Source of the DNA: Cyanobacteria bacterium FACHB-471
GTDB lineage: Bacteria; Cyanobacteriota; Cyanobacteriia; Elainellales; Elainellaceae
DNA length: 64,000 bases
Assembly (NCBI GenBank): GCA_014695345.1
Contig: JACJOC010000086.1
Coordinates: forward strand, 186,001-250,000
Direction: 5' to 3'
The number at the start of each line of letters is the position of its first letter. Within the stretch, counting starts at the first letter, position 1. The notes under the pieces are model-generated. The model searched no databases. It was given only the letters and a program-made list of their open reading frames with translations, and was not told the DNA's origin. This document shows positions 1 through 40,591 of the stretch, one piece after another. A program made the position numbers and the translations under genes.

Positions 1-165
1 TAGCCCTAAATCTAAAATCACCAGATCAAAATCTCCGGCATGGCTCACTTGCAGTGCTTCTCGCCCGGTGTTAACGGCGATGGTCGTGAAGCCGTGTGCC
101 TGTAGCCCGGATTCCAGAAAGTCGATGATGCGGAGATTGTCTTCGATGATGAGAATTCGACTCAT
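1..165 (-). CDS. Response regulator, N-terminal receiver part (truncated by window edge)
   Basis: The minus strand from the ATG at 165 reads MSRILIIEDNLRIIDFLESG and continues to the window edge, giving 55 codons without a stop. The opening beta strand with an acidic pair (E8, D9) and the later DFDLVILDLGL stretch, which carries the probable phosphoacceptor Asp, are those of a CheY-like receiver. It follows the sensor kinase on the same strand and overlaps its 3' end, so it is most likely the cognate regulator. The output domain lies outside the window; an OmpR/PhoB-type winged helix is only an inference from the partner kinase type. Confidence 0.85.
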   Translation of the reverse strand, partial: MSRILIIEDNLRIIDFLESGLQAHGFTTIAVNTGREALQVSHAGDFDLVILDLGL

Positions 166-1603
166 GGATAGTGGCTGGAGTAGCGTCAAGTGGAATCACA
201 ATCGTAAAGGTAGCACCATGACCGGGATGACTGGAAAGCTCAACCCAGCCGCCATGAGCATGGGCGATCGCTTCCACAATAGAAAGCCCCAATCCGTGAT
301 TTTCGCCCTGAGTTTCCTGTGCTGTGGTGACAAAGCGTTCAAAAATACGCACCTGATCTTCTAGGGCAATTCCTTCTCCTGTATCGCTCACCCAAATGTG
401 AGCATGGTTTTCGCGGATTGAGGAACCGAGGGCGATCGCATCCCCTACTTGAGTATGGCGAATAGCATTCTGCACTAGGTTCATTACAGCTTGGGTAATC
501 CGCTGGCGATCGACCCGAATTGGGCTTAAACCTTTCGATTCCAGCTTCCACTGTCGATTTGCTAGAGAACGGACTTTGAGATACAGTTCCTCGGTTAACC
601 AGTCCAATTCTTCCAACTTGAGCGTGAGAAAATCGGGTCGTTCTGCCTTTGCCAGGAGCAATAAATCATTGACGAGGCGATTCATTCGATCGAGTTCATC
701 AATTGCCAGTGCGATCGTTTGTTCCTGTCGTTCCGGGCGATACTTTAAAGTTTCGAGATAGCCGCGAATCACGGTAATCGGGGTTCGCAATTCGTGACCA
801 GCATCTTTCAAAAATTCCTGCTGGCTCTCAAACGCAACCTGAAGTCGATCTAGCATCGCATTGAAAGTGGTCGTCAATTTGGCAATTTCGTCTGTGCCCT
901 CTACCGCAATTCGCTGAGTCATATCCGACTCGGTGATAGACTGTGCGGTTTCAGTTAACGTTCGCAGCGGAGACAGCACTTGTCCTGCGGTTGTCCAGGC
1001 GATTACCGCTGCAATTCCCATGACCCCCAACATGACCGGAATGATCAGTAACACTGCTCCATCCACCAACTGATAAATACTATCAGCACAGTGAACAATC
1101 ACTAACACTCCCTGAGCTTGTCCATCAATAATGATAGGTTCCGCAATGTAAAACAGTTCACCCGCTGAAGTATTGACGCTTCCTTGCTCGGCATTCACTA
1201 ACTGTCCCCATTGTTGAATTAAGGCAGCATCTTGTGTTAGCAATTCCGTTGGAAACAGGTCAGTGTATTGATAAACCTCGCCTTGTAGGAGAGCGATCGC
1301 ATAGTCGTCTGCATCTATTGGTTCGTATTGGGACAGGAAAACATCAAAAATCGTAGCAACTTGCTGTCCAGCGGATGCATTAGAACTTGGACGATACTCA
1401 CGCACAAGTTGTTGAAACTCATCGGTTTGGCGTGAAACATATTCCTGAGAGTGGTCACGAATCCGCTCATATAGAACATGGTGAGTTACCAAAATAGATG
1501 CAACCCCAGAGAAGGTAGTGAGTAAAAAATACCAGATCAAGATTCGAGGACGGGTACTGTTAAACCATTGCCGCCATTGCCTGAGAGGAGGCATGTAGCT
1601 CAT
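71..1603 (-). CDS. Membrane sensor histidine kinase (HAMP-HisKA-HATPase)
   Basis: A 510-residue kinase. It has a membrane segment at about residues 21-45, an extracytoplasmic sensor region to about 180, a second membrane segment at 182-206, then HAMP, a HisKA domain with the phosphoacceptor His270 in GHELRTP, and a HATPase domain with N-box (NLVQNAIRHT), GEGIALEDQVRIFERF and GLGLSIV. The start at 1603 has a GAGGAGG Shine-Dalgarno six bases upstream and overlaps the stop of the preceding small ORF (ATGA), implying translational coupling. The reading frame runs about 32 codons past the start of the downstream regulator, an overlap of 95 bp that is long for such a pair. The signal sensed is unknown; the b561 cytochrome in the same operon hints at redox. 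Confidence 0.9.
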   Translation of the reverse strand: MSYMPPLRQWRQWFNSTRPRILIWYFLLTTFSGVASILVTHHVLYERIRDHSQEYVSRQTDEFQQLVREYRPSSNASAGQQVATIFDVFLSQYEPIDADDYAIALLQGEVYQYTDLFPTELLTQDAALIQQWGQLVNAEQGSVNTSAGELFYIAEPIIIDGQAQGVLVIVHCADSIYQLVDGAVLLIIPVMLGVMGIAAVIAWTTAGQVLSPLRTLTETAQSITESDMTQRIAVEGTDEIAKLTTTFNAMLDRLQVAFESQQEFLKDAGHELRTPITVIRGYLETLKYRPERQEQTIALAIDELDRMNRLVNDLLLLAKAERPDFLTLKLEELDWLTEELYLKVRSLANRQWKLESKGLSPIRVDRQRITQAVMNLVQNAIRHTQVGDAIALGSSIRENHAHIWVSDTGEGIALEDQVRIFERFVTTAQETQGENHGLGLSIVEAIAHAHGGWVELSSHPGHGATFTIVIPLDATPATIHESNSHHRRQSPHHRLSGIRATGTRLHDHRR

Positions 1604-2709: not shown

Positions 2710-4644
2710 ATGCAAAAACCGATCTACAGCCCTCAAGAAATTCGCAGCACCCGCTACAGCACCCTTGCCAACCTATTGCGCTACAGGTTTGACAACTTCA
2801 TGGCTAAGGGTACTGTCGCCTTAGTCAGTGGATTAGCACTAGTTTCTTTCGTGTTTATCTTGCTGATGGCAGTTCTGGTCAATCTGTCTGGAATTGCACC
2901 AGAAGATGGCGATCGCCTCAGTTTGCCAGAAGCTGTGTGGGGGGTGCTGATGCGAACGCTCGACTCAGGTACGGTCGGCGGCGATACGGGCTGGGTGTTT
3001 CGCCTGACTATGCTATTTGTCACTTTTGGCGGCATCTTTGTAGTGAGTACCCTCATTGGTCTACTCAGTAGTGGAATTGATGCAAAGTTAGAAGACCTCC
3101 GCCAAGGTCGCTCACGGGTAATCGAAACCGATCACATTGTGATTTTGGGCTGGTCCCTCCAGGTTTTTACCCTGATCTCTGAGTTAGCTCTAGCAAATGC
3201 CAACCGACCCGATACTTGCATTGTTATCCTCAGTGAAGCAGACAAAGTGGAAATGGAAACGGCGCTTCAGAGTACCTTAGGGAGACTGCCTCGAATTCGG
3301 CTAGTTTGCCGCACTGGCAACCCCAGTAATATGGCTGACCTGGGAATCGTGAACATTCAAACTGCGCGCTCTATCATTATCCTGAATTCTGCTCAAGATC
3401 ATGCAGATGCCCAGTTAGTGAAGACACTGTTAGCGATTACTAATATTCCGCGATCGCACTCTCAGCCTTATCACATTGTTGCTCAGGTCCAGACCGCTAA
3501 AACCCTGGATGTGATCAACATCATTGGGCAAAGCGAAGTAGAAACATTATTAACGAATGACCTAATCTCGCGTATCGTCGTACAAACCTGTCGGCAATCA
3601 GGATTGTCTGTGGTTTATATGGATCTGCTTGATTTTAGCGGGAATGAGATCTACTTTAAAACGGAGCCTGCACTACAGGGAAAGACGTATGGTCATGCGC
3701 TTCTGTCTTACAATGACTCCACTGTAATTGGGATTCAGCGCGTTGATGGAGCGATTCAACTCAATCCGCCCATTCATACCCCTATCCAAGCAGGGGAACA
3801 AATTATCTTAATTAGTGAAGATGACGACACCATTCACTTATCAAATCTCGCTGATACGTTAATTGATTCCCAAGCTATTCGGGCAGCAAAACAAGCTTTA
3901 GCCAGAGCCGAACACACTTTGATTTTGGGCTGGAACGATCGCGTTTGCATGATCATTCAGCAGCTCGATCAGTATGTTGCGTCTGGTTCTACTGTGACGG
4001 TCGTAGCTGAGTTTCCAGATGCCGAAGTCGATTTGTCAGAAGAAACACTTAAACTACAGAATCAAACGGTGCGCTATCAACAGGGCGATCCAGCCGATCG
4101 AGAAGTGCTAGAAAGCCTCAATTTAACCGAATACAATCATGCTGTTGTTCTATGCAATCCAAGCTTGGAGGTTGAGCAAGCAGATGCCCAAACTCTGGTA
4201 ACACTGCTGCATTTGCGGGATATTTCCGATCGCCATCACCATAACTTTCAGGTAGTCACCGAAATTCTGGATGTAAGAAATCAAGCGCTCGCTCAAGTTG
4301 CTCGTCCAGATGATTTTGTCATCAGTGAGCAGCTCATCAGTTTGATGCTGGCGCAAGTGTCTGAACAGAAGAACATTAATGCTGTACTGAGCGACTTATT
4401 CAGCCCAGAAGGATCGGAGATTTACCTCAAACCCGTCGCGGACTATGTTGAGATCGATCGCCCCGTTAACTTCTATACGATTGTTGAGTCTGCTAAAAAA
4501 CGAGGAGAGTCAGCGATCGGGTATCGGTGCAAAGCGGATGCCAATAACCTGGCGAGATCTTATGGCGTTGTGATTAATCCATCCAAAAATCAGCTTGTCG
4601 AGTTTAAGCCTCAGGACGCGATCATTCTGTTGGCTGAGTCTTAA
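2710..4644 (+). CDS. CASTOR/POLLUX-like ion channel with two RCK/TrkA-N domains
   Basis: A 644-residue protein. Two membrane helices at about 34-59 and 97-121 flank a pore-like segment (about 75-95, TLDSGTVGGDTGW). Rossmann-type RCK domains follow, the first from about 141 (DHIVILGWS) and the second near 398 (HTLILGWND). This order, with the DSGTVGGDTG pore segment, is that of the CASTOR/POLLUX/DMI1 family, whose plant members are nuclear-envelope cation channels; bacterial homologues are little studied. A cytoplasmic-membrane cation channel gated by nucleotides or ions is the likely role. A perfect hairpin follows about 50 bp after the stop. The ATG at 2710 leaves a basic leader before the first helix. 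Confidence 0.85.
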   Translation: MQKPIYSPQEIRSTRYSTLANLLRYRFDNFMAKGTVALVSGLALVSFVFILLMAVLVNLSGIAPEDGDRLSLPEAVWGVLMRTLDSGTVGGDTGWVFRLTMLFVTFGGIFVVSTLIGLLSSGIDAKLEDLRQGRSRVIETDHIVILGWSLQVFTLISELALANANRPDTCIVILSEADKVEMETALQSTLGRLPRIRLVCRTGNPSNMADLGIVNIQTARSIIILNSAQDHADAQLVKTLLAITNIPRSHSQPYHIVAQVQTAKTLDVINIIGQSEVETLLTNDLISRIVVQTCRQSGLSVVYMDLLDFSGNEIYFKTEPALQGKTYGHALLSYNDSTVIGIQRVDGAIQLNPPIHTPIQAGEQIILISEDDDTIHLSNLADTLIDSQAIRAAKQALARAEHTLILGWNDRVCMIIQQLDQYVASGSTVTVVAEFPDAEVDLSEETLKLQNQTVRYQQGDPADREVLESLNLTEYNHAVVLCNPSLEVEQADAQTLVTLLHLRDISDRHHHNFQVVTEILDVRNQALAQVARPDDFVISEQLISLMLAQVSEQKNINAVLSDLFSPEGSEIYLKPVADYVEIDRPVNFYTIVESAKKRGESAIGYRCKADANNLARSYGVVINPSKNQLVEFKPQDAIILLAES

Positions 4645-38434: not shown

Positions 38435-40591
38435 ATGAAAGCCAGCGAAGTTCTAAGCCGTTACGCTGCCGGAGAACGAGACTTTCGCCGCGCTAACCTG
38501 CGGGGACAGTCGCTTAAGGGACAGAATCTCTCTGGGTCAGACTTTAGCGAGGCAGATATTCGGGGTGCAAGCTTTGCTCAAGCTCAGCTACGGGGCGCAA
38601 ACTTTACGCGGACTGTTGCTGGAGTGCAGCGACGCTGGGTAGCTGGGCAACTGCTGCTCCTGCTGGTGATTACGTCCCTAGCAGGAGTGCTGCAAGGCTA
38701 CTTTGGCTACTTCATTGCCTTATACTTTCCCTACTGGTGGGACTCCGACTACGACTGGGATTACTTTACCCTAGACCTGGCTGTCACAGCCGCTTACTTC
38801 ATTACCATTCTGGCTACGTTCATAGCGATCGCTCGTCAGGGTTTTACAGCTAGGGCCGCTAGCACGATCGCCGTTGCAGTTGCAGTTGCAGTTGCAGTTG
38901 CAGGCGCGGGCGTAGACGCAGTTGCAGGCGCAGGCGCAGGCGCAGTTGCAGTTGCAGGCGCAGGCGCGGGCGCGGGCGCAGGCGCAGGCGTAGTCGCAGT
39001 TGCAGTTGCAGTCGCAGGTGCAGTTGCAGTTGCAGTTGCAGTTGCAGTCGTAGTCGCAGCCGCCGTCGCCGTCGCAGGTGCAGGCGCAGTCGTAGGCGTG
39101 GGCGCAGGCGCAGTTGCAGGCACAGGCGCAGGTGCAGTTGCAGTCACAGTTGCAGTTGCAGTTGCAGCCGCAGTCGCAGCCGCAAGTCTGCTGCTGGGCC
39201 TTTATTGCAGCCGTCATGCCCTCAAAGGTGATGAAAAATTTGCGCTGCTTCCCAGCTTTGGCATTGCCTTTGCGGCGCTGGGCGGCACTCGCTTTTACGG
39301 GGCTGACCTGGCGGGCGCTAACTTCACGGGTGCCAAGCTAAAAAGCACCAACTTTCGGGCAGCAACGCTGACTCACGTTTGCTGGCACAGCGCCCAAAAG
39401 CTAGATCGCGCCAGAGTGGGTGATTCCATTTTGACGAATGCAGCCGTTCTCGACCTGCTTACCAGCCGCAACGGGTATAACAAGTCTTATGTCGATGCGA
39501 ATCTGCGGGGCGCAAACCTAAATGGGGTCAACCTCAATGCCGCTAATCTGAAATGGGCAGACCTGAGCGATGCCACATTGCAGCAAGCCAACCTGCGTGA
39601 TATCAATTTGCGCGAAGTTCTGGCGATTGGCACCGATTTTACTGGGGCTTACCTCACTGGAGCCTGCTTGGAAGCTTGGAACATTGACCACACGACCAAA
39701 CTCGATCAGGTGGACTGTCAGTATGTCTTTTTGCTAGAGCATCCTAACGAGTTGGGTAACCGCGAACGTCGCCCCCACGACCCGGACGAGATGTTTAAGC
39801 CCGGGGATTTTGAAAAGCTCTATCGCAAGATGATCAATGTGGTGCAAGTGCTGTTTCGCAACGGCATGAACAGTACCGCCTTTGCTGCGGCCTTCCAGGA
39901 ATTGATGGCAGAGCATCCCGACATCAGCTATGACTCAATTCAGGCGGTTGAACGTAAAGGCGACGATGCGCTCGTCACCCTAGAAGTTTCTGAGACGGCT
40001 GACAAAGCTGAAATTTCTCGCAGTTTGCAAGCGGCTTATGCCGACAAAGTTTGTCAGCTAGAAGCCAGAGTGGAGCAGCTACAGCTCCACGCCGCTGATC
40101 TGAAAGAAGTCGCCCTGGCACAAACCGCGCAAAAGGCACAGATTTTTAATCAACTCGTTGGAGGAGGTCAAGCCGTGCAGGAAACCCACGATTCTAGTCA
40201 AAACATTAATGTGGGCAGAGATTTTACGCTCACAGGTTCAACGCTCAACCTGGGCGAAATTAGCGGCAGCGTGACGAACACGATTAACCAGTTGCCCGAT
40301 GATGGAGGTGGCGATCGCCCCACTCTAAAAGAGCTACTCACTCAACTGCAAGTGGCGATCGAAACCGATGCTGACCTGCCTGACCCCGACAAAGCCGACC
40401 TGCTAGAGCAGGTGCAAAACTTAGCAGCGGCACAGCAAACCGAAGAACCCGCTCAGAAAGAGGGATTGGTGCGAAGGGCAAAGAAGATGTTTGAGGCGAC
40501 TTTGAAAGGTTTACCGGAGACGGCAAAGATTGCAGAGGCGTGCAGCAAACTCTTACCGATGATTTTGCGGGTATTAGGGGTTCCGGTTTAG
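38435..40591 (+). CDS. Pentapeptide-repeat membrane protein with hexanucleotide-encoded Ala/Val/Gly segment
   Basis: About 718 residues. The start MKASEVLSRYAAGERDF matches the common N-terminus of cyanobacterial pentapeptide proteins, so I prefer the ATG at 38435 to the in-frame ATG at 38390. A first pentapeptide block (A(N/D)LxG type) covers about 15-60. Two hydrophobic helices follow, then a stretch of about 104 residues made almost only of Ala, Val and Gly encoded by a hexanucleotide array (38873-39184), long enough for several membrane passes. A second pentapeptide block covers about 295-420. The C-terminal region has a coiled coil, a NINVGRDFTLTGSTLNLGEI beta motif and a helical end domain. 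The function is unknown; it is likely a membrane-anchored scaffold. Confidence 0.8.
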   Translation: MKASEVLSRYAAGERDFRRANLRGQSLKGQNLSGSDFSEADIRGASFAQAQLRGANFTRTVAGVQRRWVAGQLLLLLVITSLAGVLQGYFGYFIALYFPYWWDSDYDWDYFTLDLAVTAAYFITILATFIAIARQGFTARAASTIAVAVAVAVAVAGAGVDAVAGAGAGAVAVAGAGAGAGAGAGVVAVAVAVAGAVAVAVAVAVVVAAAVAVAGAGAVVGVGAGAVAGTGAGAVAVTVAVAVAAAVAAASLLLGLYCSRHALKGDEKFALLPSFGIAFAALGGTRFYGADLAGANFTGAKLKSTNFRAATLTHVCWHSAQKLDRARVGDSILTNAAVLDLLTSRNGYNKSYVDANLRGANLNGVNLNAANLKWADLSDATLQQANLRDINLREVLAIGTDFTGAYLTGACLEAWNIDHTTKLDQVDCQYVFLLEHPNELGNRERRPHDPDEMFKPGDFEKLYRKMINVVQVLFRNGMNSTAFAAAFQELMAEHPDISYDSIQAVERKGDDALVTLEVSETADKAEISRSLQAAYADKVCQLEARVEQLQLHAADLKEVALAQTAQKAQIFNQLVGGGQAVQETHDSSQNINVGRDFTLTGSTLNLGEISGSVTNTINQLPDDGGGDRPTLKELLTQLQVAIETDADLPDPDKADLLEQVQNLAAAQQTEEPAQKEGLVRRAKKMFEATLKGLPETAKIAEACSKLLPMILRVLGVPV
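38873..39184. repeat. Hexanucleotide array (GTTGCA/GGCGCA variants), about 52 units
   Basis: A 312-bp run of in-frame six-base units of the form G-K-Y-G-C-A, mixed GTTGCA, GGCGCA, GTCGCA, GGTGCA and GTAGGC variants. It encodes alternating Val-Ala and Gly-Ala pairs inside the pentapeptide-repeat protein. Unit gain or loss would always keep the reading frame. Confidence 0.95.

Follow-up and report, generated by a model that had tools for sequence, protein, structure and literature searches.

An X-Ala hexanucleotide array in the predicted membrane domain of a cyanobacterial pentapeptide-repeat protein: fast turnover within a slot of conserved length

Results and Discussion

The window, that is, the whole 64,000-nucleotide stretch of the Cyanobacteria bacterium FACHB-471 genome analysed here, encodes a pentapeptide-repeat protein (PRP) in which an in-frame hexanucleotide array fills part of a hydrophobic slot between two repeat blocks. 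The array is periodic in its DNA as well as in its product, the slot keeps its length among cyanobacterial homologues, the arrays turn over much faster than their flanks, and the repetitive state has switched repeatedly on a tree of those flanks. The reading that we find reasonably probable is that of a membrane-anchored PRP solenoid carrying an inserted domain of about six helices and constrained size, whose helices 3-6 have been rewritten as X-Ala hexamer arrays in many lineages. A stricter version is offered more tentatively, namely a split beta-helix family in which helices 3-6 are repeatedly overwritten by hexamers, with a fixed helix count and otherwise turnover at a microsatellite rate.

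Gene layout and family membership

The features are collected in Table 1. Homologues suggest an alternative start, ATG 38435 (MKASEVL..., 718 aa), which may be the true one.

Table 1. Positions in the window of the PRP gene and its parts
Feature	Positions	Strand	Basis
PRP membrane protein gene, 733 aa	38390..40591	+	Open reading frame
N-terminal pentapeptide block, about 2.5 beta-helix coils	38468..38620	+	Pfam PF13576/PF00805; AlphaFold pLDDT about 98
Predicted transmembrane helix 1	38630..38725	+	AlphaFold H66-97; K/R-rich flank ahead, 99 homologues
Predicted transmembrane helix 2, then positively charged RQGFTAR	38756..38839	+	AlphaFold H108-135; charge counts
Hexanucleotide array, X-Ala dipeptides, in the slot of predicted helices 3-6	38868..39184 (first-pass part 38873-39184, 52 units)	+	Repeat analysis; low-confidence model helices
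Conserved re-entry segment after the membrane domain, SLLLGLYCSRHALKGDEKF...GGTRF	39185..39289	+	GGT conservation
C-terminal pentapeptide block, predicted continuation of the N-terminal solenoid	39290..39739	+	Pfam; DSSP; structural alignments bridging both blocks, 0.9-2.0 A
C-terminal region: small alpha/beta unit, long helix, low-confidence linker, helical bundle	39806..40588	+	AlphaFold model; relatives

By that family's own tests the window protein is a PRP, as its tandem A(D/N)LXX repeats score above the Pfam cut-offs (PF00805, 101 bits against 20.2; PF13599, 67.8 against 38; PF13576, 55.6 against 27), and PF00805 is present in all 55 aligned sequences. The full-length members that were read have a common plan: N-terminal pentapeptides, an AGxQxRW-like motif, two helices, the hydrophobic slot, a GDEKF-like and GGTSF-like segment, further pentapeptides and the C-terminal region. 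In the re-entry GGT, two columns are invariant and the third is conserved in at least 90% of the 55 aligned sequences.

No Pfam domain was found in the C-terminal region of the window protein, and Pfam returned for the 55 aligned sequences (27 of which are truncated ahead of that region) the repeat families, LD_SV2 in four, three single hits and nothing else; the membrane and C-terminal parts of these proteins are largely undescribed by Pfam. A function could not be assigned through families, since Pfam and NCBIfam returned pentapeptide-type models only and PADLOC a single weak match, to the candidate defence family PDC-M14B (E 1.2e-4, ORF residues 644-725, about 40319-40564). The helical C-terminal unit may be a module that other cyanobacterial proteins share. 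The NCBIfam equivalogs for HetL (73.4 of 260 bits) and Alr5209 (102.6 of 125 bits) did not reach their cut-offs. Moreover, a PDB sequence search with the C-terminal 294 aa gave two matches only, both with E about 0.8. Of the 36 genomes of the order, 23 contain relatives of the C-terminal region, and of the 388 genomes in the class, 136 contain relatives of the 117-residue flank that follows the array, the own genome being counted both times. The window genome itself looks rich in PRPs, with 57 matches to the window protein (itself counted), mostly against its pentapeptide stretches.

The array in DNA and codons

The first-pass annotation had described 52 in-frame hexamers made almost only of Ala, Val and Gly codons, and this holds exactly: the frame is kept through 104 residues, and the exceptions are one Asp and two Thr. 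The commonest units are GTTGCA (19), GGCGCA (10) and GTCGCA (5), with 11 rarer forms; the first position of the dipeptide is V28/G20/A3/D1 and the second A45/V5/T2, which gives a mean hydropathy of about 2.0 (Kyte-Doolittle, from residue counts). Tandem Repeats Finder reported 38868-39184 with period 6, 52.8 copies and 81% matches, the highest copy number of its 14 rows for the window, and lag-6 identity in 300-bp windows reached its peak, 0.81, at 38873; elsewhere in the window, once 700 bases on each side of the peak were excluded, it averaged 0.27 (sd 0.03, maximum 0.37). The units thus run head to tail with codon-level identity, as in a coding variable tandem repeat that stays in frame.

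Codon usage separates the array from the gene that carries it, Ala being encoded by GCA at 40 of 49 positions in the array versus 17 of 82 in the remaining gene (Fisher p 8e-12). In addition, the period-6 order of synonymous codons exceeds what composition gives (z 5.3), and its weakening by synonymous-codon shuffling means that the repeat exists in the DNA beyond what the protein requires. Strict Ala alternation (at least 0.9 in 40 aa) was found in 27 of 105 homologues, short arrays that offered less than 40 aa to score being counted as non-repetitive, and 19 of these 27 strict arrays have a period-6 synonymous codon order of z at least 2, the other eight not exceeding that value and one of them lying at -3.1. 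A phase-variable contingency locus acting by frame shift was rejected, as in-frame units of 6 bp cannot shift the frame. Single-stranded folding of the + strand of the window array was no better than that of dinucleotide shuffles (z 0.10), which leaves a DNA hairpin unsupported as the cause of slippage.

We give hardly any credence to an assembly artefact or collapse. One near homologue with about three units (L043) does come from a metagenome-assembled genome (MAG) of 4x coverage, and a few related contigs start in or beside the slot (L016, L064, L079); however, the units of the window array have diverged, their frame is kept, the array lies inside a 312-kb contig, and other arrays sit on contigs of several megabases (L094, L122).

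Two long minus-strand frames run across the array, at 38771-39217 (148 aa, rich in Cys-Asn/Cys-Ala) and 38836-39147 (103 aa, rich in Thr-Ala/Pro-Ala). We take them as by-products of a repeat that contains no stop codons in these frames; an annotation pipeline could list them as genes. By reading of the frames, four other DNA matches to the array in the own genome (L050-L053) are Pro/Ala-rich stretches of other proteins. A protein search of 59 genomes with the array translation matched only the window and one PRP of the same plan (L165 of G083), and is no proof that such arrays are restricted to the family, as it was insensitive enough to miss the known arrays L132 (G043) and L120 (G037). The L165 stretch (G083:C6:97194-97424) is divergent; it seems to be without helices 1-2, its Ala-X array following the N-terminal pentapeptides directly.

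Membrane topology and structure models

AlphaFold predicted helices for the window protein at residues 66-97, 108-135, 139-161, 183-201, 204-226 and 233-263, the first two being the ordinary hydrophobic helices already noticed ahead of the array. Over residues 161-230, which make up most of the array (147-250), pLDDT is only 33-44, so that the array helices are not established. In the non-repetitive homologue L025, the slot is modelled as helices 54-86, 96-116, 118-139, 143-176, 178-198 and 207-234, with pLDDT mostly 45-85. These predicted helices in the same slot, together with the hydropathy layout and the flanking charges, agree with the earlier view of the array as a membrane region.

Hydropathy profiles were drawn from 99 of the 107 slots, namely those of 140-210 aa. 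In the mean profile of 42 non-repetitive homologues, three polar dips separate four hydrophobic stretches in the array part, a layout which the 33 repetitive arrays follow weakly, their interior r of 0.56 being equalled by 14 of 300 dipeptide shuffles. Val-Ala and Gly-Ala tracts do come in blocks in the window array, which is blockier than most dipeptide shuffles (p 0.023, 300 shuffles). That such blocks tune helix packing, as had been proposed, agrees at best loosely with that r and with the six of 33 arrays that are blocky at p<0.05.

The charges around the slot were counted in the 99 homologues, per 100 residues. Ahead of helix 1 there are 14.6 K/R and 0.8 D/E, in the loop between helices 1 and 2 D/E prevail (5.1 vs 2.8 K/R), and after helix 2 K/R reach 6.8 against 1.1 D/E; inside the slot charges are few (1.1 K/R, 1.9 D/E), and after the array 13.3 K/R stand against 9.5 D/E, a weak inside signal. 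According to the positive-inside rule, positively charged flanks face the cytoplasm. On this pattern the array would begin and end at the cytoplasmic side, its end less clearly so, and an even number of helices would be called for. Short forms with slots of 86-97 aa could accommodate about one helix beyond helix 2 and so break this even-number rule.

It has also to be considered whether the X-Ala tract forms a beta or silk-like structure and not helices, which we judge very unlikely. A strict two-residue alternation suits a strand, where it would turn all Ala to one face, Gly-Ala runs resemble silk, and the pLDDT of the array is low enough to leave room for such a fold. Nevertheless, the slot is predicted to be helical in the non-repetitive homologue, the average of 42 homologues has the dips and stretches described above, and the flanking charges fit a membrane domain. 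Gly-Ala tracts are, for their part, poor membrane helices.

The first-pass annotation spoke of two pentapeptide blocks. According to both AlphaFold models they are probably one beta-helix, of the right-handed quadrilateral kind in the predicted model, split by the inserted membrane domain. NP275 aligns to the window model with Z 18.5, 98 residues superposing at 0.9 A across residues 1..318, and the NP275-276 fusion with 116 residues at 1.4 A across 1..362; the homologue model gives 104-residue alignments across 1..316 with both Rfr23 (1.4 A) and the synthetic Beta1 (1.8 A), all these ranges being first and last residues only. As far as residue 318, about 103 residues of the window model lie outside the membrane helices, and 98 of them would be aligned to NP275; this makes it very likely that the two blocks belong to a single split solenoid. 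Longer alignments, from about 165 residues upwards, have an rmsd of 6-13 A, with the remainder of the second block not superposed (HetL on the window model: Z 21.0, rmsd 7.2, 212 residues), and on the homologue model NP275 aligned to the second block alone, 302..400.

Slot length among homologues

The slot was taken from helix 1 to the re-entry segment and delimited by HMMs of both flanks, the two models being seeded by 68 rows in which a strict motif had located it. Fifteen sequences without the N block and one without the C block were set aside, C-block matches below 30 bits and identical copies were skipped, and 107 distinct slots were kept. Of the class matches, 30 arrived as loci and 80 more were fetched, weaker matches being left out; nine stretches, from eight loci, were obtained from GTDB contigs, and a genus-wide search around G158 at 1e-20 turned up 8 genomes out of 26, none of them new to the set. 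The array slot, measured in these 107 distinct cyanobacterial homologues, is not peculiar to the window genome.

Slot length is strongly conserved: 97 of the 107 slots have 144-194 aa (184 aa in the window), the others having 86, 91, 97, 100, 107, 204, 205, 217, 233 and 268 aa. With the five short forms excluded, the median is 167 aa for repetitive slots (alternation of at least 0.8; n 33), 170 aa for intermediate (n 24) and 167 aa for non-repetitive ones (n 45), with standard deviations of 14.5, 10.4 and 21.2, respectively. Hence the array state makes the slot neither longer nor more variable in length, except that all five short slots (86-107 aa) carry Ala-X remnants. Three of these lie on contigs of about 2.1, 5.5 and 6.4 Mb, which indicates that contraction happens and is tolerated.

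The analysis started from the idea of an expandable membrane spacer. In the form weighed here, strains or cells would differ without constraint in its length and number of helices, and this would be an adaptation. We now consider this reading unlikely. In its favour are the five short forms, three of them on the megabase contigs, and the Moorena relatives, whose slots of 161, 171, 188 and 205 aa sit between flanks that are 87-93% identical. Against it, the range of 144-194 aa that holds nearly all slots and the equal medians of repetitive and ordinary ones indicate an array that fills a membrane domain of conserved size, and at a flank identity of 99.4% two arrays are equal in length and 99.7% identical. 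The part of the claim that stands is that array length differs while flanks are conserved, as among those Moorena relatives that have flanks 90-93% identical but slots measuring 161, 188 and 205 aa, a difference in copy number between close relatives (species or paralogues); total size is constrained, and unconstrained length tuning is not supported.

Sequence turnover and recurrence

We compared all 18 pairs of homologues with a flank DNA identity of at least 0.88; an earlier set of 24 hand-picked pairs, which had missed one pair above that threshold, gave the same outcome. Thirteen pairs have repetitive or intermediate slots, and in 12 of these the array part has a DNA identity of 0.53-0.67 with 15-132 gapped bases, always below helices 1-2 of the same pair (0.69-0.86). 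The thirteenth is the pair with flanks at 0.994 mentioned above. The five non-repetitive pairs have slot identities of 0.97, 0.91, 0.88, 0.67 and 0.66, none of them more than 0.06 away from the value for helices 1-2 of that pair; the two diverged ones (0.66-0.67) both involve the divergent member L107, and their helices 1-2 are equally diverged. In all these comparisons, shared members mean that the pairs are not independent, and alignment of low-complexity sequence inflates identity. Overall, array slots are hardly alignable between relatives whose flanks are 88-93% identical, and differ in length by up to 44 aa. Homologues with conserved flanks thus carry different arrays, as had been expected, and a hypervariable in-frame repeat is supported.

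On the flank tree, at least 15 changes between the repetitive and non-repetitive states are needed for 78 labelled rows (33 repetitive), versus 25 on average, and never fewer than 20, in 200 shuffles of the labels. The repetitive state is therefore clustered yet recurrent, inherited to a degree and gained or lost many times. This count omits the five short forms and remains 15, over 83 rows, when they are entered as repetitive; an earlier count of 17 had scored short arrays (less than 40 aa of slot to score) as non-repetitive for that alone. Support on the tree is modest, with 19 of its 104 inner branches starred and 49 open, but the switch between L068 (repetitive) and its neighbour L085 (non-repetitive) is firm (support 100).

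These observations also bear on a selfish or neutral decay at the DNA level, in which the hexamers would have spread through a weakly selected domain because they are harmless; we hold this to be improbable as well. Array types do differ between lineages (Val-Ala/Gly-Ala in the window; Ala-Phe, Ala-Ser and Ala-Ile elsewhere), codon order points to DNA-level duplication, and 45 of the 102 full-size slots are non-repetitive, all of which speaks for it. However, slot length is kept and charges in the slot are few, so hydrophobicity and size look selected.

The constrained membrane domain that we favour could arise as follows. The solenoid would lie on the cytoplasmic side of the membrane, where the inserted domain would keep it in place, and might serve as a membrane-bound scaffold. 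As the chain would leave and re-enter the solenoid on one side, the domain would keep its size and the parity of its helices, a strict parity that the 86-97 aa forms do not fit. Helices 3-6 would need just hydrophobicity and the right total length, with little demand on sequence, and the gain or loss of one hexamer would add or remove two residues, leaving the frame intact and the product hydrophobic. Strand slippage or unequal recombination, of which we infer slippage as the mutational route, may then have rewritten these helices as in-frame X-Ala arrays in many cyanobacterial lineages. Such arrays would turn over much faster than the flanks, while selection on topology would hold the size by balancing gain against loss.

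Comparison with known systems

HglK of Nostoc/Anabaena PCC 7120, a protein of 727 aa with four predicted N-terminal spans and 36 repeats from residue 501, is likewise cyanobacterial and combines predicted membrane spans with pentapeptide repeats, according to the consulted excerpt of its description (PMC8145042). Compared by that description, its spans are N-terminal and precede one long C-terminal repeat block, whereas those of the window protein lie between two repeat blocks; a similar array was not mentioned in the excerpt (PMC8145042).

At the DNA level, the nearest analogue found is the 6-bp (GCTGGC)n repeat of Salmonella mutL, whose three copies encode LALALA and change in number by slipped-strand mispairing (excerpt of PMC2955026). 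Both are in-frame hexanucleotides encoding an Ala-containing dipeptide, but the mutL repeat forms a lid over the ATP-binding pocket and affects mutability (PMC2955026), while the window array has 52 copies in a predicted membrane domain. No description of such arrays in PRPs was found in the open-licence full-text literature, and the word pentapeptide was absent from the excerpt consulted of a study of microsatellites in Leptolyngbya-like genomes (PMC8619395).

HetL, NP275, Alr5209 and other solved PRPs share the right-handed pentapeptide beta-helix, to which the window and homologue models align across both blocks; we know of no solved PRP that is split by a membrane domain. With the SV2 luminal domain, too, a membrane protein carries a beta-helix of the pentapeptide type (LD_SV2 matching weakly in 4 of 55 homologues, structural Z about 11). 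In SV2 the beta-helix sits in a loop of the transporter, whereas the window protein has the membrane domain inside the beta-helix.

Since members with ordinary helices and members with nearly pure X-Ala sequence have one slot size and similar flanks, the family amounts to a test, set up by nature, of the minimum of sequence information with which a membrane domain of several helices can do. If the reading is true, it also provides a collection of naturally occurring transmembrane bundles built from simple X-Ala sequence. A bacterial microsatellite would here reside in a conserved domain, with duplication in the DNA as the source of sequence change and topology as the limit to it.

Two loci deserve separate mention. 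The near homologue L043 (positions 3545-4348; Leptolyngbyaceae RU_5_1), with 73% identity in the best segment and about three hexamers, could be an assembly collapse in its low-coverage MAG; its frame stops early in the second repeat block, which may also be an assembly error. In Moorena sp. SIO3I8, L044 and L045 each hold two gene copies close together on one contig, and as their arrays are quite different, duplication adds to the diversity of the arrays.
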